Origin: Planctomycetota bacterium
GTDB lineage: Bacteria > Planctomycetota > Phycisphaerae > Phycisphaerales > Phycisphaeraceae
Direction of reading: 5' to 3'
Assembly (NCBI GenBank): GCA_016350165.1
Contig: CP066225.1
Coordinates: forward strand, 1,922,001 to 1,986,000
DNA: 64,000 nucleotides
The notes under the pieces: model-generated
Seen by the model: only the letters and a program-made list of their open reading frames with translations
What the model was told of the DNA's origin: nothing
Databases searched by the model: none
Translations under genes and position numbers: made by a program
Part shown: piece after piece, positions 48,992-64,000 of the stretch
Layout of the letters: every line of letters begins with the position of its first letter
How positions within the stretch are numbered: position 1 is the first letter of the stretch

Positions 48992-50014
48992 TTAAATCTC
49001 CAATTCCAACTCAATCACTTCATTCTCCAATACCCCCACAGGCCAATCCTCTCGTTTCGTCTCATGATCAATCCCCACACCATCAAGCACGCCAATTTCC
49101 ATCACCTCAACCTCAGCTTTCAACTCATACGACTTTCCCTTTTTCCATTGCCACTGCTCAGGCAACGTAACACGCCCATAACAAATCAACCCACGATTAT
49201 TCTCCCCCTCACGCACAAACTCAACCTCTTGCCCATCCAGCAATACCCGTCTCACATAGCCTAACCGCTTACTCATCCCATCAGTCTCTAACCCCAACAT
49301 AACACTCATACCCATCGTCTTATCATTCTTATCATAAACGCGCAACGCAACATCCCCATCCAAAATCGCTGCACGCCATTGCAACACCACCTCATCACTC
49401 ATCTTCCCATGCCGATACCCTTCCCAAAGCGTCCGATCAAACTCATACATCAAGTTCCCGATCTTCCGCTGATTGCTCACAAAATTCACCAGCTCAGCAA
49501 TCTCGTCTTCCTTCAATTCATCCGCAATCGAGCGTTTTTGCAACTCACCCCACATCGCCATATTCGCCCATTGCCCAGCCTTATCCAACTCAACCATCAG
49601 TTCCTTAACCGTCATATATTTAGCCTGCGTATACAGATGATCTCCCTTCACTTCAAACTCATACGCAAACCAAAAAGTCATCCCCACCCAACTGAGCAGT
49701 GGCAGCAACATCACCACAATCCCACAAACCACTCCTTTTAGCTCTCGCTTCCTTTCCCACACAACACCACCCTTCACTTTCAAATCTTGACCACACTCGC
49801 ACACCCCTTCATTCGCTTCATCCTTCTCCATCAACTTCACCTCACCACACCCCGCACACTTCACTCGCCCCTTCGCCTTCCTCCCTCTCACCCCATAAAG
49901 CACAAGCCCCACTCCCACCACGATGCAAGGCAGCAAAAACATTAAACCCCACATCCATAACATCTCACCACTCACCTCATAAACCTCAATCATTCCTTCA
50001 ACATACCGCATCAT
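48992..50014 (-). CDS. A1: membrane zinc-ribbon protein, array unit 1
   Basis: One of three paralogues of about 340 residues (A1, A2, A3). Layout: membrane helix (about 18-41), a zinc-ribbon candidate (Cys53, Cys56, Cys72, Cys74), second helix (93-116), a helical region with the array motif YMTVKELMVELD...MWGELQKR, and a beta-rich C-terminal part ending in Glu/Leu repeats. The last pair is CxC rather than CxxC as in A2 and A3. GVVWERKRELKG after the ribbon is shared with A2. Its ATG overlaps the B1 stop by four bases (ATGA). Function unknown. Confidence 0.8.
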   Translation of the reverse strand: MMRYVEGMIEVYEVSGEMLWMWGLMFLLPCIVVGVGLVLYGVRGRKAKGRVKCAGCGEVKLMEKDEANEGVCECGQDLKVKGGVVWERKRELKGVVCGIVVMLLPLLSWVGMTFWFAYEFEVKGDHLYTQAKYMTVKELMVELDKAGQWANMAMWGELQKRSIADELKEDEIAELVNFVSNQRKIGNLMYEFDRTLWEGYRHGKMSDEVVLQWRAAILDGDVALRVYDKNDKTMGMSVMLGLETDGMSKRLGYVRRVLLDGQEVEFVREGENNRGLICYGRVTLPEQWQWKKGKSYELKAEVEVMEIGVLDGVGIDHETKREDWPVGVLENEVIELELEI

Positions 50015-51498
50015 TTCTCCCCCCCTTCTTCACGCCTCACATCCACCACCTCAAAATCTTCCCCCTCACAATACTCAATCACGCCACCCCAAATCTTCCT
50101 CACGTCCTTCCTCTTCTCCACCAACTTACTATTTGCACGCAACGCCACCTTCACCTCACCCCACACCTCACCTTCATTTAAAACCAACCGATACTCGTAC
50201 ATCTTAACATTTCCTTTACGATCATTTAAATCCCAACCCACATATTGATGCCTCGCAATCTGCTCCGCTTTACGCATCTCTCCATCACCAATCCCCACAT
50301 AACAATCCCTGCTCATCTCACCATCCCACCGCACCAGTACGCCCACAGCTTCCTTCCCATCAAACCGCAAACGATTTACCCTCACCACACTCACCGCCCC
50401 CTGCTTCACCGGATCATCCCCCTCATCCATGCTCAGCTCAATCAAAGGCTCATCTTTACCATAAACATAAAACCGCTTCTTCACCTTCTTCACACGCTTC
50501 CCCATCACCGTCACCCAACCCTTCTCGCCCTTCTGCAAATCTTCACTCCTCACCCCTCCATTCGTAGGCCCCATCACCAACTCAACCTCCATCTCATGCC
50601 ATCCCCTCCCAATCTCACCATACAACGTTACCTCACCATATCTTGTTGCACGAATCGGCCTCCAACTCCTCACTTCCTCACCATCCAACCAAACCTTCCT
50701 GTAGTCATACAACACACCATACCCACCCATCTCTCCACGATTCATCATCAAACGCATCGACACCAACCCATCACCTTCACGGTATCGCCGATCCTCCTCC
50801 ACACCAAACACACCCATATCCGCAACCAGATAATCCACCGCCAACTCATCATCAACCCCCTTGTTTTGTAGCATCAAACCCAAAAATCCCTGCGAGCCAT
50901 CACTCCCATAACCCACATCATTCCCATCTGCCAATTGCTTTTCTAACCGCTTCTCACATTGCTCAATCCGATACCGCAACAACTTCTCACACTGCGCTTT
51001 ATCCACCTCACCCCGCTTCGCACGATCGTACAACTTCTCATACACCCACCCACTCCATATAAATTTTTCATCCATCGCATGCCCGACAAGCTCATCCACA
51101 CTCAGCCCGTCGTAGTACCCATCGGTCATATATTTATTATTCCCATCACCCTCACCCACCATCGCCCACAGCATCATTCCCACACCCACAACAATCCACC
51201 AGCCACTAGCAAGTACCGCGCCCATCATCCATCGCCATCTCACTCCACACTCCCCATTCACCACATTCTCTCCATCCATCAACGCCTCACCACACTCAGG
51301 GCACTTCTCAAACTTCCGACCCGCCATCCCGCGCAGATCATAACCACACCCACCACAACTTCTGCCGCAATAAACAAGTTCTCCCCCCTCACCCTTCTTC
51401 CACAACCTTACCTTGCCTCGCCGCGCAAAGCATCCAAGCACCACCGCTGCCACAATCGTTGGCAACCAGAAAAAAAACAATAACAGCCCGGAACCCAT
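50011..51498 (-). CDS. B1: membrane zinc-ribbon protein, array unit 1
   Basis: One of three paralogues of about 500 residues. Layout: helix (4-23), ribbon CGGCGYDLRGM...KCPECG (Cys48, 51, 66, 69), helix (90-113), a helical domain with GLSVDELVGH...VYEKLYDRAKRGEV, then a large beta-rich region. Strongly shared blocks with B2 and B3 include RGWHEMEVELVMG, KKRFYVYGKDEPL, VVRVNRL, EYRLVLNE and the ending GEDFEVVDVRR. The start has GAGGG 8-12 bases upstream. Topology puts the ribbon loop on one side and the large domain on the other side or in the periplasm. Function unknown. Confidence 0.8.
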   Translation of the reverse strand: MGSGLLLFFFWLPTIVAAVVLGCFARRGKVRLWKKGEGGELVYCGRSCGGCGYDLRGMAGRKFEKCPECGEALMDGENVVNGECGVRWRWMMGAVLASGWWIVVGVGMMLWAMVGEGDGNNKYMTDGYYDGLSVDELVGHAMDEKFIWSGWVYEKLYDRAKRGEVDKAQCEKLLRYRIEQCEKRLEKQLADGNDVGYGSDGSQGFLGLMLQNKGVDDELAVDYLVADMGVFGVEEDRRYREGDGLVSMRLMMNRGEMGGYGVLYDYRKVWLDGEEVRSWRPIRATRYGEVTLYGEIGRGWHEMEVELVMGPTNGGVRSEDLQKGEKGWVTVMGKRVKKVKKRFYVYGKDEPLIELSMDEGDDPVKQGAVSVVRVNRLRFDGKEAVGVLVRWDGEMSRDCYVGIGDGEMRKAEQIARHQYVGWDLNDRKGNVKMYEYRLVLNEGEVWGEVKVALRANSKLVEKRKDVRKIWGGVIEYCEGEDFEVVDVRREEGGEK

Positions 51499-51652
51499 AA
51501 CATGCCCTCAGTTATTCATCCCATCATGCAAATATTCACTTCATACACTGCCCACACACCAAATAGACGAACTCACCCCCAAAACCTTTCACACCAACCA
51601 ACCTTTATCCAATTTCAGCAAAATCCCAGAAACAAGACTTCACACATCCACA

Positions 51653-52675
51653 TTAAAACGCTTTCTTCAATTCCAATTCCCTTACCTCTAATACGCGCTT
51701 AGGCAAATCCTCTCGCCTCGTTCTCCCATCAACCCCCGCCCCATCAAGTATCCCCAAATCCACCATCACCACCTTCGCGCTCAGCACATGCTCCTCCTCA
51801 TCATCAAACCTCACCCCCTCAGGCAACAGCACCTTCCCCCGAATAATCACACCCCTATTTTTCTCCTCGACATACTCAAACTTCACCAACTGACCATCCA
51901 GGCGCATCTCCTCTACCCACCCATTACGCTTACTCACCAGCAAATCCTGATGATTCTCCCCCAAATACACATCCACCCCAAGCCAAGACCTTCCCCATTT
52001 TCTAACCTCCAACTGAATATCCTCATCCAGAGCATCCTTCACCAACTTCAACACCACCTCATCACTCATCGCACCACGCCTCGCCATCTCCCACATCGCA
52101 TGATGCACCTCATACCGCTTATTCTCACTCCGCTTTTCTTTAAGCATTGCATCCACTGCCCGCTTAATCATCTCCTCACTTACTTCCCCCTCATCCAACC
52201 GCTCTTCAAGTTCACGCCACACCGCCACATCAAACGCTTGGCCCGGCTCCTCCAACTCTTCAACCATTTCCCTCACGCTCATCAAGCTCAAGTCACGCTT
52301 CATCAAAATATCACCATTCACCACACCCACCACATACACGCACATAAACCCAAACCACGTCAGCAATGGCAATCCCATCACTACCATCCCAGCAACCGCA
52401 GCCCGCCACCAGTACTGCCTCTCCCACACAATACCCCTTCTCTTCGTTAGATCAGCTCCACACCCCACGCACTCAACAACCTCTCCACCTTTCCCATCAA
52501 CGCGCTCGCCACACTTGCTGCAACTCACCTTCCCCGTTCCCTTCCTTCCCAAAACACTCCACAACAACAACCTCCCACCCATCACCACGCAAGGCAGTGC
52601 AAACATCAAACACCACGCCCAAAACAATCCATCCATACCAAATTCTTCAATCATCCCATAAACATACTTCATCAT
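51653..52675 (-). CDS. A2: membrane zinc-ribbon protein, array unit 2
   Basis: Paralogue of A1 and A3, 340 residues. Ribbon Cys52, 55, 69, 72 (CSKC...CVGC) between helices at about 18-42 and 90-112. The linker motif reads LMSVREMVEELEEPG...VWRELEERLDEGEV, the clearest version of the motif shared by all six array genes. The C-terminal part repeats ILDGAGVDGRTRREDLP, close to VLDGVGIDHETKREDWP in A1. It overlaps the B2 stop by four bases. It ends 155 bases before B1 starts. Confidence 0.8.
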   Translation of the reverse strand: MMKYVYGMIEEFGMDGLFWAWCLMFALPCVVMGGRLLLWSVLGRKGTGKVSCSKCGERVDGKGGEVVECVGCGADLTKRRGIVWERQYWWRAAVAGMVVMGLPLLTWFGFMCVYVVGVVNGDILMKRDLSLMSVREMVEELEEPGQAFDVAVWRELEERLDEGEVSEEMIKRAVDAMLKEKRSENKRYEVHHAMWEMARRGAMSDEVVLKLVKDALDEDIQLEVRKWGRSWLGVDVYLGENHQDLLVSKRNGWVEEMRLDGQLVKFEYVEEKNRGVIIRGKVLLPEGVRFDDEEEHVLSAKVVMVDLGILDGAGVDGRTRREDLPKRVLEVRELELKKAF

Positions 52676-54195
52676 TTCTCGACCCCTTCCTCATCCTCAC
52701 CCCTTCGCATATCCACCACTTCAAAATCCTCACCCTCCTTCAAAACCACAACCCCACCCCAAGCTTCAACAAGTATCTTCGCATCCTTATGCATCATCGC
52801 ATTAGGCCGCATCTCAATCACAACCTTCCCCTCACCATCACGCAACCGCTCCACCTCTTCTTCATTCAAAACCAACCGGTACTCCTTCATCCACGTTCCA
52901 GCTCGCTTCGCATTTGCAGACGCTTTCTTCCCACCACTAAAAACATACTGATTCAACAACTCCGCTTTCCGCCCCTCACCTTCATCAACCTTCAAGTAAC
53001 ATTCACTACTCAGAGGATCATCCCACCTCAACATCACACCCAACGCTTCACTCTCCCCAAATTTCAACCGGTTCACACGATACACCTTCACCGTCCCATT
53101 CTTCACCGGATCATCCGCCTCATCCAAATTCAACTTAACCAACGGCTCATCCTTCCCCCAAATGTAATATCGCTTCTTCACCCGCTTCCGCCTCACCCCC
53201 TTCACCTTCGGCCACTCCCCAAACGCCTTCCGACTAAACGTATGACCCACCAAATCATCCACCACACCCATCACAACCTCAACCTCCACATCATGCCATC
53301 CCTGCCCCATCTTTCGACTAAATGACACCACCCCCTCATAACTCCTTCGCTCCTTCACCCAATCTTCCACTTTCTCACCATTCACCCAAACCCTCTCAAA
53401 ATCAAAAAGCACATGATGCCCAAAACTAAACCCCTCATTCATCACAATATTGACATCCATATCCACCCGCCCTTCACGCCGCATCCCCCTATCTGTAATC
53501 CCACTCACCCCCCGCTCAGCCACAATCAAATCCACCAACAATTCATGAGCAATCAAATGCTTCTTAACCAATGTCCTCAAAAACACATCCGACCCATCAT
53601 GCTCCAACCGCATCATCCCGCCCGCCTCCAACTGCTCTTCAAGCATCTCCTCCAAAACTTCAATCCGATGCTTCACCACCACCTCCCCCTCATCAATCGT
53701 TAACTCCCCACGCAACACCCGCTCATTCAATTCTTCATACGCAGCAAGCTTAAAAACAAACTCATCATCCTTCACATGCTCAACCAACTCCGCAACACTA
53801 ATCTCATCGTAATAAGCATCTGTATGATATTTCGTTATTTGCACCCCATACCCAAACCACACACTCCACATACCAAACCCAAAATACAACACCAGCGGCC
53901 ACCCCACCGCCAACACGCCCCCCAACATCCAACTCCACCTCACGCTTTGCATCCCATTAAAAATATTCACCCCATCAACCAAGAACCATCCACACTCCGG
54001 GCATCGCGTGATCCGATCAAACTTCGTCCCTCGCAAGTCATACCCACACCCACCACAATACTGCCCACCAACATCCACCTGTCCCTTCTTTTTCTTCACC
54101 CAAACCAACTTCCCCCGCCGTCCAAAGCGCATAAACACCCCCGCCCCCAACACCACCGGCAACCACATCAATAAAATCACCATCAAGTCACTCAT
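52672..54195 (-). CDS. B2: membrane zinc-ribbon protein, array unit 2
   Basis: Paralogue of B1 and B3, 507 residues from the ATG at 54195 (GAGG upstream; a TTG one codon earlier is also open). Helix, ribbon YCGGCGYDLRGT...RCPECG, helix, then EISVAELVEHVKDDEF...YEELNERVLRGEL and the shared beta-rich region with KKRYYIWGKDEPL, VYRVNRLKFG and GEDFEVVDMRR. It is closer to B1 than to B3 over these blocks, suggesting the duplication order (B3,(B1,B2)). The C-terminal tail is a run of acidic residues. Confidence 0.8.
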   Translation of the reverse strand: MSDLMVILLMWLPVVLGAGVFMRFGRRGKLVWVKKKKGQVDVGGQYCGGCGYDLRGTKFDRITRCPECGWFLVDGVNIFNGMQSVRWSWMLGGVLAVGWPLVLYFGFGMWSVWFGYGVQITKYHTDAYYDEISVAELVEHVKDDEFVFKLAAYEELNERVLRGELTIDEGEVVVKHRIEVLEEMLEEQLEAGGMMRLEHDGSDVFLRTLVKKHLIAHELLVDLIVAERGVSGITDRGMRREGRVDMDVNIVMNEGFSFGHHVLFDFERVWVNGEKVEDWVKERRSYEGVVSFSRKMGQGWHDVEVEVVMGVVDDLVGHTFSRKAFGEWPKVKGVRRKRVKKRYYIWGKDEPLVKLNLDEADDPVKNGTVKVYRVNRLKFGESEALGVMLRWDDPLSSECYLKVDEGEGRKAELLNQYVFSGGKKASANAKRAGTWMKEYRLVLNEEEVERLRDGEGKVVIEMRPNAMMHKDAKILVEAWGGVVVLKEGEDFEVVDMRRGEDEEGVEK

Positions 54196-54299
54196 CAAAA
54201 CCTCGCCTCAACAATACCCATCCACCATATAAGCGTACCGACACCCCAACCCTTTCATCCCCGCCAATCAACAACATGCTACATGAAAAACAAACCACA

Positions 54300-55352
54300 C
54301 TAAAACGTTGTATCAATCATCACTTCCACCTCTTCATCGCTCAGCACCACCTCAGGCCAATCCTCCTCCTTCGTCCGCCAATCTACACCACCACTCTCCA
54401 GTAACCCTATATACGCCAACCTCAACTTCATCTTCACCTCACGATCTTTCTTCTCCGCCAAGTCAGACTCACTCATCTTCAATCGCAACACCCGCCACAT
54501 CTCACCACTCTTTTCCCAATCCATCTCAAACCCAATCGCTTCACCATCCACCTTCACCTCTTTCACTGCCACCAATCGCTCAGCCATCAAAAACCCCCAA
54601 ACCCAAGGCACCCGCATCTTGCAATGAACAACGCCTCCCTCAACTCTCTCAATCTTCAACTCACCCAACTGCCAACGTTTATTATTAAACGCATACGCCT
54701 TCTCCGATAACTTCAACTCCATCTCATCCGTGACCATCCCCTTCTCATGCGCCTCCAAAAACAATATCCCAGCATCATAGTTCGTCGAATACGTATTCAC
54801 TCTCGCATCACAAAACACACCTGCCAACCGTTCTAATTCCTGATTAGACAATCGCCCATTTCTTTGACGCTTGATCAGTTCCAGCCAACCATACGAAGTC
54901 CCATCAACATTCGTATCCGCAAACTCATCAATCAGTTCATAATCACTCATGTGCTTCATATACAAAGCCGGCCGGTGCTGGCGTGTCTGCATCTGATAAT
55001 AAATCACACCCAGCATCACACCCCAACTCGCCAAAGGCATCGCCCCCACTAAAACACCCAACATCACAACCCGCCAACTCCGCATCCGCCCCCACACAAC
55101 CCCCTTCTTCATGCACAAATCATAACCACACCCCTCGCACACATCCCTACCCTCATCCATTCCTCCATCAAGCACCTTCTCACAACCACCACACTTAACC
55201 ACACCACGCCGCCTTCTTCCCCAAAAACCATTCACCACTAACCACATCCCCATCACCCAGCAAGGCAACCCATACAACACCGCCCACATCCAAACCGTCC
55301 CATCCTTCAATCCCCATGCCTCAAACATATCTGCAAAATAATTCATCATCAT
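54300..55352 (-). CDS. A3: membrane zinc-ribbon protein, array unit 3
   Basis: Paralogue of A1 and A2, 350 residues and the most diverged. Ribbon CGGC...CEGCGYDL (Cys54, 57, 72, 75); the second pair keeps the CGYDL of the B-type ribbons, which hints that A and B share an ancestor. Helices at about 20-43 and 93-118. The motif appears as HMSDYELIDEF...GWLELIKRQRNGRL. The C-terminal part has GVDWRTKEEDWPEVVL, aligned with the REDWP block of A1/A2. It overlaps the B3 stop by four bases. Confidence 0.8.
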   Translation of the reverse strand: MMMNYFADMFEAWGLKDGTVWMWAVLYGLPCWVMGMWLVVNGFWGRRRRGVVKCGGCEKVLDGGMDEGRDVCEGCGYDLCMKKGVVWGRMRSWRVVMLGVLVGAMPLASWGVMLGVIYYQMQTRQHRPALYMKHMSDYELIDEFADTNVDGTSYGWLELIKRQRNGRLSNQELERLAGVFCDARVNTYSTNYDAGILFLEAHEKGMVTDEMELKLSEKAYAFNNKRWQLGELKIERVEGGVVHCKMRVPWVWGFLMAERLVAVKEVKVDGEAIGFEMDWEKSGEMWRVLRLKMSESDLAEKKDREVKMKLRLAYIGLLESGGVDWRTKEEDWPEVVLSDEEVEVMIDTTF

Positions 55353-56986
55353 TCACCGCCCTTTCTCAAATCCACCAACTCAAAATCCTTACCCGCCTCA
55401 AAACGCATCACCTTCCCCCATACCCGCTCAACCTCAGGCTTCTCCTCAACCAACCTCGCATTCGGCCGAAGCTCAACCACAACCTTCCCCTCACCACCAT
55501 TCAACCATTCACGATCCTCCCCATCCAAAACAACCCGATACTCCAAAACCTGCCATCCCGGAATATTAAACGACCGTCTTTCCTCAATAACCAAATCACC
55601 ATACCGCGCCCCCTGCCCACCAATCCGCCCCAACTTCTTCTCACGTTCACCCAACACCACAACACAATCATGCCCAAACCACGTCCCATCGCGAGGCACC
55701 TTCCACTTCAACATCACACCCATCGCCTCGTCATTCCCCCCATGATCCGCATGCCAATCCAATCGGTTCACCCGCATCAACTTCAAATTCCCACTTTCAA
55801 TCATCTCATCCGCAGCATCCACACTCACAGGCACCGCCACCTCATCCTTGCCATATACATAAAACCGCTTCTTAATCCGCTCACGCAACCAGTTCCCCTC
55901 ATCCCCGACAATCCGTTTCACCTGCGCATGCTTCCGCAAACTCTCCAGTCCATCCTTCAACTCATACTTAAATCGAAACTTGTTCTGCGGGTCCTTAACC
56001 ACCGGCATAACAAAATCCACTTCCAAATCATGCCACCCCGCCGCCAACTCCTCATCAATCGTCACGTAATAACCACTCCAACTCTTCGACTGCCCGCGTA
56101 TCTCCACAACCTTCCCATCAAGCCTCATCTCCCTTGCATAAAGCGCTGCAATATAATCCGACCCATACCTGCTCACCCCCCACACAAAACGGATATCCCA
56201 CTTATGCCTTCCCTCCCTCATCCGCTCAAATGCCTCCACACGATCAACACCACCCTCACCCGCCATCACATTCACAAATAGATCATCATCCAACATCCCC
56301 GCCTCATTCGCGTGACCCAAAAACATCCTCGCCTTATGCCACATCGACAACTGCCCCTCACGCCAATCCTTAATCATCTCCGCATCCTTCACGCGCAATC
56401 CGCCCTCCCAATCCTCAACCGACTTCTTCATTTTCGCAAGTTCACGCTCCGCAACCCCCTTCACAAACGCTTTATTCAATTCACCCTCACCAAGCCGCCG
56501 CTCAAACTCCTTAAACATAGGACTTCCAACCCGCCAATCGCGATCCTCAATAAACGCAGCATGCCTCTCCCCAAGCTCCTCCAAACTCATCTCCATATAC
56601 GCTTCAGCACTCGGATATCCATAATCCTCACCCTTCACCCACGCAGCCCCGCGCATCCCAACATCAACCACACCAAACCAAACCACCGCAAACCCCGCCA
56701 TCCCAACCCACAACCATTTAACTCCACGCTCACCCTGCAGCACATTCACACCAACAACCAACTTTAACCCACACTCAGGACATGCATTTCCATTCCCCCC
56801 ACCATCTCCCTTCATCCCCTGCAAATCATAACCACACTTCCCACAGTATCGCTTCCCAATCCGCACCTCTCCCCTGCGCTTGCTCTTCTTCCAAATCAGC
56901 TTCCCTCTTAAACCCACCCAACCAAACATCACCGCTGCCAAAACCACAGGCAACCAAAACATCAAAAAGATCCATTGACTATCCAT
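55349..56986 (-). CDS. B3: membrane zinc-ribbon protein, array unit 3
   Basis: Paralogue of B1 and B2, 545 residues, longer through inserts in the middle. Helix (5-24), ribbon YCGKCGYDLQGM...ACPECGLKL (Cys48, 51, 69, 72), helix (92-113), EMSLEELGERH...FKEFERRLGEGEL, then KKRFYVYGKDEV, LMRVNRLDWH, VLEYRVVLDGED, VVELRPNARLVEEKP and GKDFELVDLRK. It is the first gene of the six-gene array. The start shares the leader word GAGGGCATG with B1. The repeat-rich region at 57 kb lies directly upstream. Confidence 0.8.
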   Translation of the reverse strand: MDSQWIFLMFWLPVVLAAVMFGWVGLRGKLIWKKSKRRGEVRIGKRYCGKCGYDLQGMKGDGGGNGNACPECGLKLVVGVNVLQGERGVKWLWVGMAGFAVVWFGVVDVGMRGAAWVKGEDYGYPSAEAYMEMSLEELGERHAAFIEDRDWRVGSPMFKEFERRLGEGELNKAFVKGVAERELAKMKKSVEDWEGGLRVKDAEMIKDWREGQLSMWHKARMFLGHANEAGMLDDDLFVNVMAGEGGVDRVEAFERMREGRHKWDIRFVWGVSRYGSDYIAALYAREMRLDGKVVEIRGQSKSWSGYYVTIDEELAAGWHDLEVDFVMPVVKDPQNKFRFKYELKDGLESLRKHAQVKRIVGDEGNWLRERIKKRFYVYGKDEVAVPVSVDAADEMIESGNLKLMRVNRLDWHADHGGNDEAMGVMLKWKVPRDGTWFGHDCVVVLGEREKKLGRIGGQGARYGDLVIEERRSFNIPGWQVLEYRVVLDGEDREWLNGGEGKVVVELRPNARLVEEKPEVERVWGKVMRFEAGKDFELVDLRKGGE

Positions 56987-57163
56987 CGCATGCCCTCATC
57001 TATATGCCGTCTGCCATTCATCCCTCACCCACATCCATATAGACGTACCCAAACATCATTAATTGCACACCACCCACAACTTCCACAACCAATCACAAAC
57101 AGCACCAAAACAACATCTAAACCTCACACCTCCTCATCACACGATTCTATCTTCGCCATTCAA

Positions 57164-57677
57164 CGACACACTTAAGCAAAACAACAATCACCCCTCATAC
57201 GTCTTACATCGATACGCTACAGCAAAACAACTAAACCCAACCTCTCACACTTCAACCGACGATACGCTCGAGTAAAACAAAAACCAACACCTTCAATCTT
57301 CTTCATCCAACGACACGCTTGAGCGAAACAACAATCACCCTCCGTACAACTTACATCGATACGCTCAAGTGAAACATCTCACCACAACAGCCGGCGAGCC
57401 ACGCTCGCCGTGCCCATCTCCTCAAACCTCCCCACCACACGATTCAATCTCCCAACCAACGACACGCTACAGCGAAGCAACTAAAACCAACCTTTAACAT
57501 TTCAACCGACGATACGCTCGAGTAAAACCAAAACGAACGTCTTCAATCTTCTTCTTCCAACGATACGCTCAAGTGAAACAACACCACAAACACGTACGCA
57601 TTGCCATTCGACGATACGCTACAGTGAAACAACTCAACCTTACTTACCCAACCTACGATACGTTCAGTGTAACAACC
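57164..57677. repeat. Ten degenerate 22-bp repeats spaced about 50 bp apart
   Basis: Units begin at 57164, 57210, 57260, 57311, 57357, 57460, 57510, 57561, 57612 and 57656. Consensus about CGAYACGCTNNAGYRAAACAAC. The core CGCT-NN-AGYG is a small palindrome; several units keep it by compensating G-T pairing. Intervals are 46, 50, 51, 46, 103, 50, 51, 51 and 44. The double interval has a GC-rich hairpin exactly where an eleventh unit would be. Confidence 0.8.
57393..57409. repeat. REP-like hairpin inside the repeat array
   Basis: GGCGAGC (57393-57399) pairs with GCTCGCC (57403-57409) around CAC. It occupies the missing slot of the 50-bp series and resembles the hairpin at 11906-11922. Confidence 0.65.
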
Positions 57678-58197
57678 CACCATGCCCCCAGCCCTCACTC
57701 AAAGCTCACATCCCCTCACGCCGCTACCCCTTCTAAAACCAAATCCTCCGCTCACCACCCCAAAGGCCCATCCGGCCCCCTTGAGGATACAGCAAATTTC
57801 ACTTCCTATACTACGCCGTATGCGCAAACCACATGCCAAACCCAACCCCCTTCCAATCCGCGCGCACAAACACGCAATCAACGAATTTAAAACCTTCAAT
57901 TTCTAACCCATTCCAGACCATTTCTTACTCATTCCGCATCATTTCTAACCATTTCCACCCAATTTCTGACCATTTTCAACACCCAAAAACCACATAAAAA
58001 CCGCATATGCGCGCGCAAACGCGCGCCTTTGTTACATCCATCATTCATAACGCCTTTATTACCAAGCCAACCCCACAAACACTCAGCCAAAAAATCAAAA
58101 AAACATCAAAATCCCACCACAATCATGCGCGCACCAAAAACCAAATCCAATTCATTTCATGCGCGCATACCCTTCCCCAAACACCCCCCGCAACAAC

Positions 58198-61957: not shown

Positions 61958-62452
61958 TTACAGGTTTTCAAAAAATCGAATAATGTCCACGAACAATGTG
62001 TATTTATAAATGATAAAAATGAGCGTGGCGATTAATTGAATCGGTAAAGACAACCAAATCAAAACCATTCGCCAACCGCCTCTTGGCTTGCATATAGCCA
62101 ACCCACCTAAAAAGAAAATAAAACCGGCTGGAAAAACAGCACCAGATATAAGAGTGAGCACTGCATAAATACCTGTTGTGATGACGTATCCGGGGTGAAT
62201 GTAACCCACTAATTGCTCTGCGGTATACTTGGTAATTTCATCATAGTGCACTTCTGAATCTAGCCGACTATTGCAGGCTGAACAATGCACATAAGTCCGG
62301 CGCACCTGTTCAAGTGGGATCACATAAAACAAATATTTTTGTGTAACCGCAAACTGAACTTTGGCTTGAACATTCTTCGCTTCACAAACAGGGCAATGTA
62401 TCTTCACCATTTTATTCATTGCGACTATTTTAGATTGTTTCGCACTAACCAT
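61958..62452 (-). CDS. Tandem zinc-ribbon membrane protein 1 (CPVC-x33-CxxC)
   Basis: A 164-residue member of a four-gene tandem family. Two Cys pairs, CPVC (20-23) and CSAC (57-60), with exactly 33 residues between, should bind one zinc. They are followed by YTAEQLVGYI, two or three hydrophobic helices (about 90-122 and 130-150) and the family GGWR before the last helix. The beta-rich stretch between the pairs contains YLFYVIPL. A start at the internal Met12 or Met15 is possible. Function unknown. Confidence 0.75.
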   Translation of the reverse strand: MVSAKQSKIVAMNKMVKIHCPVCEAKNVQAKVQFAVTQKYLFYVIPLEQVRRTYVHCSACNSRLDSEVHYDEITKYTAEQLVGYIHPGYVITTGIYAVLTLISGAVFPAGFIFFLGGLAICKPRGGWRMVLIWLSLPIQLIATLIFIIYKYTLFVDIIRFFENL

Positions 62453-62513
62453 TGACTTCTCGGAGCATATGTAACAGAGCAGAACACTTCACGTTTTATC
62501 ATGACAAATTAAA

Positions 62514-62987
62514 TCAAGCCAGTAGTAATCTGACTGCCCCAGCAATCGTCATTAAAAATGCGAGCCAAATAATAAACATCCGCCAACCACCACGTTTCCA
62601 ATTAAACATGAATGCGAACAATAAAAACGGAATATTTATGAAGACACCAGGCACTGCACCAATAGCTAATAAGCCAATTAAAAACACAAATATCGCGGTT
62701 AGAGCCGAAGTAAAACCACCCGTCAACGGATAAATATTCCCTACAAGTTCATCTGCTGGCAATTGAGTCAATGCGTCGTATTTTAAAGCCGTCATGAGTT
62801 TGCTTTTACATTGTCCACATTTAACATGTGCACGATTAAACTTGCTAAGTGTAATGCAATACAAAATTCTATTTTCGAAATATTCTCTGTATGGCTCGCC
62901 GACAATTTCTCTTGTTTTGCAAACAGGACAGTGAATCAGAATATCATCACCTTGCTCAATATCGATTTTCTTTTGTGTAATAAGCAT
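62514..62987 (-). CDS. Tandem zinc-ribbon membrane protein 2
   Basis: A 157-residue paralogue: CPVC (20-23) and CGQC (57-60) with the same 33-residue interval, LPADELVGNIYP, hydrophobic helices, KRGGWRMFIIWL and a short hydrophobic end. It is 61 bases upstream, on the same strand, of member 1. Shared IHCPVC and ALKYDALT/EVHYDEIT blocks show recent duplication with substantial divergence. Function unknown. Confidence 0.75.
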   Translation of the reverse strand: MLITQKKIDIEQGDDILIHCPVCKTREIVGEPYREYFENRILYCITLSKFNRAHVKCGQCKSKLMTALKYDALTQLPADELVGNIYPLTGGFTSALTAIFVFLIGLLAIGAVPGVFINIPFLLFAFMFNWKRGGWRMFIIWLAFLMTIAGAVRLLLA

Positions 62988-63030
62988 TTTGCCGCCAATT
63001 TCTACAGGGTTTAAAACCTGCTATGACTAA

Positions 63031-63501
63031 CTATAAATTCATCAATGGAATATAGCCAAAGAAGTAAAACATAATCCATGTACTGACTTGAATCGCAAGC
63101 GCGATGTATGTCATTTTTAGCCGCCAGCCTTTTCGCCAATAGCATAAGAGCAATGAGATGCCAATGAAGATTGTTCCAATAAAAAGGACTGGACTAATTA
63201 GTAGTGCAAGTAGCGCAAAGCATGCACTTGAAAATCCATTTGCAGGATAAATATCACCAACTAGTTGGTCGGCTGTATAACGATGCAATTTTTCAAAATG
63301 CACACGTGATTTCAAACAGACTTTACATGCGCCACAATTCATTAATGTCTGGCGTTTATGCCCGATCGAAATAAAAAACATATACGTATCTGTAACTATT
63401 TCCAGACGTGGTTTACATAAGACATTTTCTTTGCGACATACAGGACAGTGAATTTCAATGTCTTCGCCTGTATATGTTTCTGTTTTTGTTCCTAAATACA
63501 T
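63031..63501 (-). CDS. Tandem zinc-ribbon membrane protein 3
   Basis: A 156-residue paralogue: CPVC (19-22) and CGAC (56-59), again 33 residues apart, then RYTADQLVGDIYPANG, two hydrophobic regions, WRKGWRLKMTYIAL and a final hydrophobic end. The N-terminus MYLGTKTETYTGEDIEIHC aligns with that of member 2. It lies 43 bases from the member 2 start. Function unknown. Confidence 0.75.
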   Translation of the reverse strand: MYLGTKTETYTGEDIEIHCPVCRKENVLCKPRLEIVTDTYMFFISIGHKRQTLMNCGACKVCLKSRVHFEKLHRYTADQLVGDIYPANGFSSACFALLALLISPVLFIGTIFIGISLLLCYWRKGWRLKMTYIALAIQVSTWIMFYFFGYIPLMNL

Positions 63502-63595
63502 TTTGCCATCCGGAAATTAATATTCATTTATGTGATCAAGTATGTATACATTACAAATGATCTATGATGTGGGGTTAAAAAAACTTTTAAAGAAA

Positions 63596-64000
63596 CTATG
63601 AATTAGGAGCTGTGATTTGCACACCTATCATCATCATAAAGTAAACAAACTGAATTGCTATAGCAATAAGCGTAACAACACGTTGCCAACCACTTCGGTT
63701 GTAGTTAATCGCGAGTGAAGCAAGAACAGGCAGTAATCCAACTATTGGCAAAAAAGAAAGAGCAAGTGCGAAGATCGCAAGGACGCCGCCAGCAAATCCA
63801 TTTTCACGTATAAGGAAAGGGGCTAACTCATCAGCTGTATAAGCGGGTAGTTCATCGATCGACATTTTCGAGATCATTTTGCCGTTGCATTTGCTACATT
63901 TAACGAAGGGGGTTTGTTTACCGCCTATTGTCACTACAATAAGCCATTTAACTTTTTCTACATAGACGAAAGGATATCCATCGACATTATTTGTTTTACA
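63596..64000 (-). CDS. Tandem zinc-ribbon membrane protein 4 (cut by window end)
   Basis: The frame stays open to the window edge; the GTG at 63932-63934 is internal, not the start. Upstream codons read CKTNNVDGYPFVYVEKV onward. The Cys at the very edge (63998-64000) stands exactly 33 residues before CSKC, as in the other three members, so it is the second Cys of the missing first pair. YTADELAPFL, two hydrophobic regions and RSGWQRVV (Gln for the usual Arg) complete the family pattern. The N-terminal 20 or so residues lie outside. Confidence 0.72.
   Translation of the reverse strand, partial: CKTNNVDGYPFVYVEKVKWLIVVTIGGKQTPFVKCSKCNGKMISKMSIDELPAYTADELAPFLIRENGFAGGVLAIFALALSFLPIVGLLPVLASLAINYNRSGWQRVVTLIAIAIQFVYFMMMIGVQITAPNS

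Follow-up and report, generated by a model that had tools for sequence, protein, structure and literature searches.

Tandem B-A gene pairs of Poriferisphaera heterotrophicis ZRK32 belong to a lineage-restricted family of predicted membrane zinc-ribbon proteins

What do three consecutive gene pairs in a planctomycete chromosome encode, how did they come to stand in tandem, and are the two members of each pair, called A and B, separate components of an undescribed system? The locus lies in a 64,000-nucleotide stretch of DNA (positions 1922001-1986000, here called the window) of a single-contig genome of 5,234,020 bp, taken as that of Poriferisphaera heterotrophicis ZRK32; the genus is placed by the NCBI taxonomy in the Phycisphaeraceae, Phycisphaerales. 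It was compared throughout with a genome of the same genus, G001 (4,291,168 bp), taken as P. corsica KS4. We find that A and B are homologous, that the pair was duplicated as a unit, and that the locus is part of a lineage-restricted, tandem-expanding paralogous family. Both this evolutionary account and the predicted anatomy described below are held with high confidence.

The six genes are intact open frames on the minus strand between 48992 and 56986, transcribed in the order B3-A3-B2-A2-B1-A1. The preliminary description of the locus had reported three B-A pairs on a single strand, products of 340 to 350 residues for A and 495 to 545 for B, and a four-base overlap within each pair; the open reading frames (ORFs) confirm all three points, with ATGA at 3 of 3 B/A junctions. 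Gaps of 101 bases (A3-B2) and 154 bases (A2-B1) separate the pairs. The features are as follows, with TM for transmembrane helix and pLDDT for predicted local distance difference test.

55349..56986, minus strand: B3, 545 amino acids, first gene transcribed; TM, zinc ribbon, TM, helical part and two beta domains (ORF and homology; architecture by analogy to the B1 model)
56771..56845, minus strand: B3 ribbon, residues 48-72, CGKCGYDLQG...CPEC (sequence, pattern match)
54300..55352, minus strand: A3, 350 amino acids; TM, ribbon, TM, helical part and one beta domain (ORF, alignment and ATGA overlap with B3; architecture by analogy to the A1 model)
55128..55193, minus strand: A3 ribbon, residues 54-75 (sequence)
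52672..54198, minus strand: B2, 508 amino acids; first start TTG, second codon ATG (ORF, alignment)
53992..54057, minus strand: B2 ribbon, residues 48-69 (sequence, pattern match)
51653..52675, minus strand: A2, 340 amino acids (ORF, ATGA overlap with B2)
52460..52522, minus strand: A2 ribbon, residues 52-72 (sequence)
50011..51498, minus strand: B1, 495 amino acids; AlphaFold2 mean pLDDT 78.8 (ORF, model)
51292..51357, minus strand: B1 ribbon, residues 48-69 (sequence, pattern match)
48992..50014, minus strand: A1, 340 amino acids; AlphaFold2 mean pLDDT 74.3 (ORF, model, ATGA overlap with B1)
49793..49858, minus strand: A1 ribbon, residues 53-74; second knuckle C-x-C in place of C-x2-C (sequence)

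The loops of A3 and B1 contain extra Cys. The cluster is not a chance arrangement, because full-length relatives in the same B-A order stand at two other ZRK32 loci and in the congener.

The idea that A and B are two distinct components of one system is ruled out by their homology. Alignment of an A profile (10 proteins) with a B profile (11 proteins) using hhalign gave a probability of 99.9 and an E-value of 1.9e-33 over 301 columns. B aligns across almost all of A and is longer by 120 to 195 residues in the 10 pairs compared; judged from these alignments, B consists of A and one more beta domain. What looked like a two-gene "system" is therefore an ancient duplication, with, most simply, loss of the second beta domain in A or its gain in B.

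Other loci of the same kind were located in both genomes, their neighbouring genes (U32-peptidase-, secretin-, WecA-, oxidoreductase-, DsbB- and ThiF-like) being named by eye from sequence. In ZRK32, which has 7 intact pairs in all, two pairs adjoin a U32-peptidase-like gene (L017) and two are flanked by secretin-like and WecA-like genes (L018). The orthologous loci of KS4 hold two pairs (L035, the U32 locus) and one B with an A split in two frames (L037, the secretin locus); with one further pair elsewhere (L036), KS4 has 3 intact pairs plus 1 broken. The split A frames (L037, 6067-7200) match the A profile at 6-144 and, further along, at 186-341, and reflect either decay or a sequencing error. 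An opposite-strand oxidoreductase-like gene (L017, 8858-9961) lies between the two B-A pairs of the ZRK32 U32 locus and is not found in the syntenic L035. At the KS4 site equivalent to the window cluster, from the DsbB-like to the ThiF-like gene, one 627-residue frame is found instead, without a B-profile match at E ≤ 1e-8; either the ZRK32 line therefore acquired the triplet or KS4 lost it.

Triplication of the pair as a unit had been proposed from the window, and the congruence of the A and B trees bears it out. In separate trees the window trio is monophyletic (A, 100/99; B, 100/100), the orthologue pairings A5-KA1 and B5-KB1 are recovered at 100/99 and 97/97, and further groups are A6-A7 (100/99) and B6-B7-KB4 (95/98). 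A and B distances are correlated over 10 pairs (Mantel r 0.853, p 5e-5, 20,000 permutations), also when pairs 2 and K1 are removed (r 0.80, p 1e-4), in a test that is uncorrected for shared descent, itself the point at issue. These 10 are out of 11 pairs, as the broken A of L037 was left out of the A alignment, the trees and the Mantel test.

Beyond the genus, profile searches found relatives at E ≤ 1e-8 in 25 of 51 genomes of the taxonomic family, most of the B-profile matches listed covering the N-terminal part only. Full-length homology was also seen: in another genus, a protein is matched by positions 11-500 of the B profile (E 5.7e-64), and positions 23-344 of the A profile gave a match at E 1.8e-49. 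When 84,980 species genomes were scanned for one conserved peptide pattern, 158 stretches matched; 36 of these proved to be relatives, 34 titled Planctomycetota or subgroups thereof (Tepidisphaera checked) and 2 titled "uncultured bacterium." At many of these 36 loci the match is limited to the anchor; 19 of 58 B-profile-matching frames, at 16 of the loci, match both the N- and C-terminal ends. Two or more same-strand family frames stand at 10 of the 36 loci, up to five (L113), although the frames of L120 and L128 overlap and may represent fewer genes.

The window proteins have the feature that defines the family, two TM helices flanking a four-Cys ribbon close to the N-terminus, of the CxxC-YDL...CPEC type in B, with A proteins mostly devoid of the YDL motif. 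At the DNA level, the CxxCxYDL pattern occurs 47 times in ZRK32 versus 2 for the reversed control, 17 times in KS4 and up to 53 times elsewhere in the taxonomic family (G017), and is present in 44 of the 51 family genomes. In a sample of 149 genomes of the phylum, counts stood out in three genomes (21, 17 and 18), all from a single other family of the order; another genome from the order gave 0, and one from the family of ZRK32 itself gave 2. Beyond the order the highest count was 7 (control 2), and the rest were at most 3. Within ZRK32, 24 of the 47 ribbons lie within 3 kb of another, compared to a random mean of 2.4 and a maximum of 12 in 2000 draws. Proteins with the TM-ribbon-TM anchor and at least 200 residues behind it number 31 by script in the ZRK32 stretches read, or 32 with A2, which the script pattern missed and which was added by hand; they form arrays of three (L082), four (L020) and five (L092). 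A small membrane protein sits among the five tandem proteins of L092 (4869-13354). A 678-residue protein of G031 (L044, 7456-9492) has two ribbon modules and resembles a fused tandem pair. By eye, the ribbon anchor is seemingly joined to HEAT-like repeats in two tandem genes (L043, 6482-10012) and to a propeller-like domain (L041, 6622-8166). That the pair might occur only in this window, a possibility raised at the outset, is thus ruled out by the other ZRK32 loci and the relatives in other genomes.

The preliminary description also knew of no named system with this layout, and that assessment stands. No Pfam or NCBIfam cut-off was reached, and PADLOC, PHROGs and PDB sequences were uninformative: 0 of 6 proteins matched PADLOC at E ≤ 1, PHROGs gave just weak matches of unassigned function (best E 0.004), and nothing among PDB sequences fell below E 0.028, where matches to cytochrome c3 probably rest on Cys spacing. 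When 34 members were scanned against Pfam, five families appeared at E ≤ 0.01, each in one to three members; the weak matches to DmmA, LysW, DZR and HVO_2753 are to zinc ribbons. Within the portions of the literature covered by searches on CGYDL, zinc ribbons of Phycisphaerae or Planctomycetes, tandem paralogues of Planctomycetota and the combination of ribbon and immunoglobulin (Ig)-like domains, no description of the family was found. The parts are familiar, in an order without a description in the literature so covered.

The anatomy was predicted with AlphaFold2, B1 and A1 being modeled as single proteins from inputs of 11 and 10 rows, respectively. Both models show a helix, a ribbon-bearing loop with short strands, a second helix, six or seven helices (about 118-228 of B1, 126-218 of A1) and then beta domains, in agreement with the layout first claimed (helix, four-Cys ribbon, helix, helical part, beta-rich part). 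Ig-like domains are predicted once in A and twice in B. Residues 229-479 of B1 gave 564 Foldseek matches at E ≤ 0.001, mostly to Ig proteins (titin, PTP-delta, antibodies and T-cell receptors), and the VIA comparison of the B1 beta part reached Z 7.5 with a root-mean-square deviation (rmsd) of 3.4 over 92 residues. For A1, residues 218-340 matched the Ig domains of FlaG/FlaF stators at Z 8.2 (rmsd 3.3, 89 aligned), a value that other Ig-like folds tie to within 1; a family missing from the VIA lists is not thereby excluded. Overall, the predicted beta sandwiches match Ig structures at middling Z, a result that concerns models only. The helical part of A1 (124-246) matched one chain of the Integrator-PP2A complex at Z 6.8, at most a hint that the hairpins of this model form a solenoid.

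Zinc binding by the ribbon is predicted from the Cys pattern. Its side of the membrane was assessed from charge: in all 19 ribbon loops that were parsed, lysine plus arginine exceed aspartate plus glutamate (of 21 proteins tried, A6 and KA2 dropped out because the script did not place their helices), and the segment preceding the first TM helix has 4 to 23 residues. Under the positive-inside rule such a net-positive loop, and the ribbon with it, is predicted to be cytoplasmic, which would most likely leave the large C-terminal part outside the inner membrane.

How far the copies have diverged bears on why three are kept. As first noted, all are intact with divergent middles: identity between the three window copies is lowest in the helical middle (20-39% in B, 20-34% in A), with TM2 (24-42%) and the first beta domain (25-39%) almost as low, while the ribbon loop retains 49-54% in B and 37-45% in A and the last beta domain of B 36-50%. 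Overall pairwise identity is 27-43%, the closest within the trio being A1-A2 (39%) and B1-B2 (43%). Divergence of this extent leads us to reject selection for dose, which had been offered as one explanation. Recognition of different ligands by the divergent parts is possible. Nonsynonymous divergence (dN) between window copies was 0.53-0.80 and synonymous divergence (dS) 0.80-1.02 by NG86. Third codon positions are 51-56% G and 3-6% C, a skew under which dS is probably underestimated, and nothing is therefore concluded about selection beyond fast divergence.

From these data a role can be sketched. Each protein would form a two-helix membrane hairpin with the predicted four-Cys zinc ribbon on a short loop inside, and would expose helical hairpins, followed by a single Ig-like beta domain in A or two in B, outside the inner membrane. 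Given common ancestry, the co-translation-like overlap, duplication as a unit and joint divergence, each A most likely partners its own B in an A-B complex. The fast-diverging helical and first beta parts suggest a binding surface, which may engage an envelope or surface glycan or protein; the ribbon, being better conserved, points to a shared partner inside or a role in assembly, and could dock a cytosolic protein or fix the complex. Our working proposal, a tentative one that may well prove wrong, is that A-B acts as a paired envelope binding or scaffold unit with cytosolic docking through the ribbon.

Several observations weigh against this picture. None of the six proteins has a named homologue, each falling under the cut-off of every Pfam or NCBIfam model listed at E ≤ 1, and no neighbouring gene was seen, in frames read by eye, to recur across loci and indicate a process. 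Full-length B-like proteins were also seen with no same-strand adjoining A (G035, G014, G064 and G017), so that members of the family can do without A. When A and B are placed in one tree, the A proteins are monophyletic at 90/86 and the window B trio is not joined with the other B proteins, at an unsupported fork; one single A/B split is thus not firmly shown, and both A and B proteins have long branches and skewed composition. On the structural side, the ribbon region of B1 was modeled at low confidence (pLDDT 52-70), TM-scores on the B1 query were just 0.12-0.18 among the 50 Foldseek matches listed, the Ig-like matches of B1 stayed below Z 8, and the whole A1 model had zero Foldseek matches at E ≤ 0.001. 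Moreover, resemblance to an Ig fold shows no function.

Some of the evidence for a binding or scaffold unit would serve other explanations as well. Faster divergence of the outer helical and first beta parts than of the ribbon loop, and a ribbon predicted to lie on the regulator side of the membrane, would suit a signal transducer whose outer helical and Ig-like part senses a ligand or envelope stress and whose ribbon passes the state on to a regulator, perhaps by means of zinc or thiol chemistry. We consider this unlikely, as no sigma factor, anti-sigma factor, kinase or regulator was seen by eye to recur beside the pairs and no signaling domain reached a Pfam or NCBIfam cut-off. Mostly nonadaptive tandem amplification, in which copies of a duplication-prone family drift under weak constraint with no copy-specific role, could account for the small difference between dN and dS, the broken A gene of KS4 and the presence of one versus two pairs at orthologous loci; it is nonetheless doubtful, since dS is probably too low under the base skew, all six window frames are long and intact with four ribbon Cys each, and the A/B pairing was kept through several duplications.

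Inversion of the topology, with the ribbon outside and the large C-terminal part as a cytosolic effector, draws on the adjoining convergent gene, which by eye is like that of the periplasmic thiol oxidase DsbB. The net-positive loop in every protein parsed argues against it; in addition, Ig-like folds are mostly found outside the cytoplasm, where four free Cys would be prone to oxidation. We regard it as rather improbable. The preliminary description had further mooted a defense function, and tandem paralogues with divergent middles could form a defense or conflict module with variable recognition domains, but the lack of PADLOC matches for any of the six proteins, the weakness of those in PHROGs and the location of two of three ZRK32 loci in neighborhoods syntenic between both species leave this unsupported and very improbable. 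A bolder extension of the proposed binding unit would see the A-B pairs as a diversifying repertoire of paired recognition receptors, cognate heteromers, joined through the hairpin-ribbon module, presenting distinct helical and Ig-like surfaces, an idea to which we give little credence; that lineage-specific tandem arrays would create new specificities, for kin or surfaces or for substrates in a planctomycete envelope, as that idea entails, seems similarly far from likely.

Whichever role applies, the ribbon module occurs dozens of times in some genomes of the taxonomic family (47 in ZRK32, 53 in G017) and is not covered by the curated models searched, which therefore leave dozens of membrane proteins per such genome unnamed. 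Defining the family would annotate these proteins together, and the cognate pairs lend themselves to a test of partner specificity following duplication. Should the outer parts bind distinct ligands, they would represent a bacterial Ig-like receptor repertoire built by tandem duplication.

Upstream of the first transcribed gene lies one further feature.

56987..58197, no strand: stretch of 1.2 kb upstream of B3 without a convincing gene; one 105-residue frame (57573-57890, plus strand) and a cluster of a 23-nucleotide repeat (about 57156-57637)

The repeat, ACGAYACGCTNNAGYGAARCAAC, clusters at 57156-57637 of the window and has 183 copies in ZRK32 at up to 2 mismatches, with 0 control matches; at up to 1 mismatch ZRK32 has 103 copies and KS4 has 5, while 14 other relatives have none. 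It is an interspersed repeat family expanded in the ZRK32 lineage. As a driver of the arrays it is not supported, since ribbon loci are not clearly nearer to it than rotated positions: using 100 listed places of the 183, 2 of 30 loci lay within 2 kb (rotated mean 1.71), 4 within 5 kb (3.59, P 0.49) and 9 within 8 kb (5.33, P 0.08). A promoter scan was uninformative (2 found versus 7.1 expected), and a terminator scan found 6 versus 3.0 expected. GC skew is extreme between 44000 and 60000 of the window (-0.5 to -0.69 regardless of coding strand, with a skew at third codon positions of up to 0.9), and its sign flips near 10 and 26 kb. At 61958-63934, three small zinc-ribbon membrane proteins stand in tandem with a possible fourth frame (63596-63934), where KS4 has one such gene (L096, 14812-15276); the window therefore holds a second tandem expansion specific to this lineage.

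How do these proteins compare with known ones? Titin and PTP-delta resemble the beta domains of the B1 model in fold only; they differ in sequence, with 8-12% identity in the top VIA rows, and have no ribbon anchor. The archaellum stators FlaF and FlaG are membrane-anchored Ig-like partners with one membrane helix and no ribbon. Their plan recalls the one proposed for A and B, and their Ig-like domain is the top structural match of the A1 beta domain, tied as it is with unrelated Ig-like folds; A and B differ in having two predicted helices with a ribbon between them. Staphylococcal TcaA, with a cytosolic ribbon, one membrane helix and a large outer part, resembles the plan predicted for A and B in tying a cytosolic ribbon by a membrane helix to a big outer part, and differs in that its ribbon precedes a single helix, rather than lying between two, and in its outer folds. 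One report describes it as a 454-residue zinc ribbon domain-containing protein (PMC10611510). No TcaA model was among the Pfam matches of the six window proteins at E ≤ 1, and by these sequence searches TcaA is not a relative. Finally, a set of Phycisphaerae proteins with a TM-ribbon-TM anchor and an ectodomain (L038/L099, L075/L100, L076/L101, L039/L103 and L102) differ from the pairs in being single genes, with no same-strand adjoining A in the stretches read; at L101 and L103, ribbon matches fall in short frames on the opposite strand. Their parts follow each other as in B, along most or the whole of its length, at hidden Markov model E-values of 1e-35 to 1e-63.

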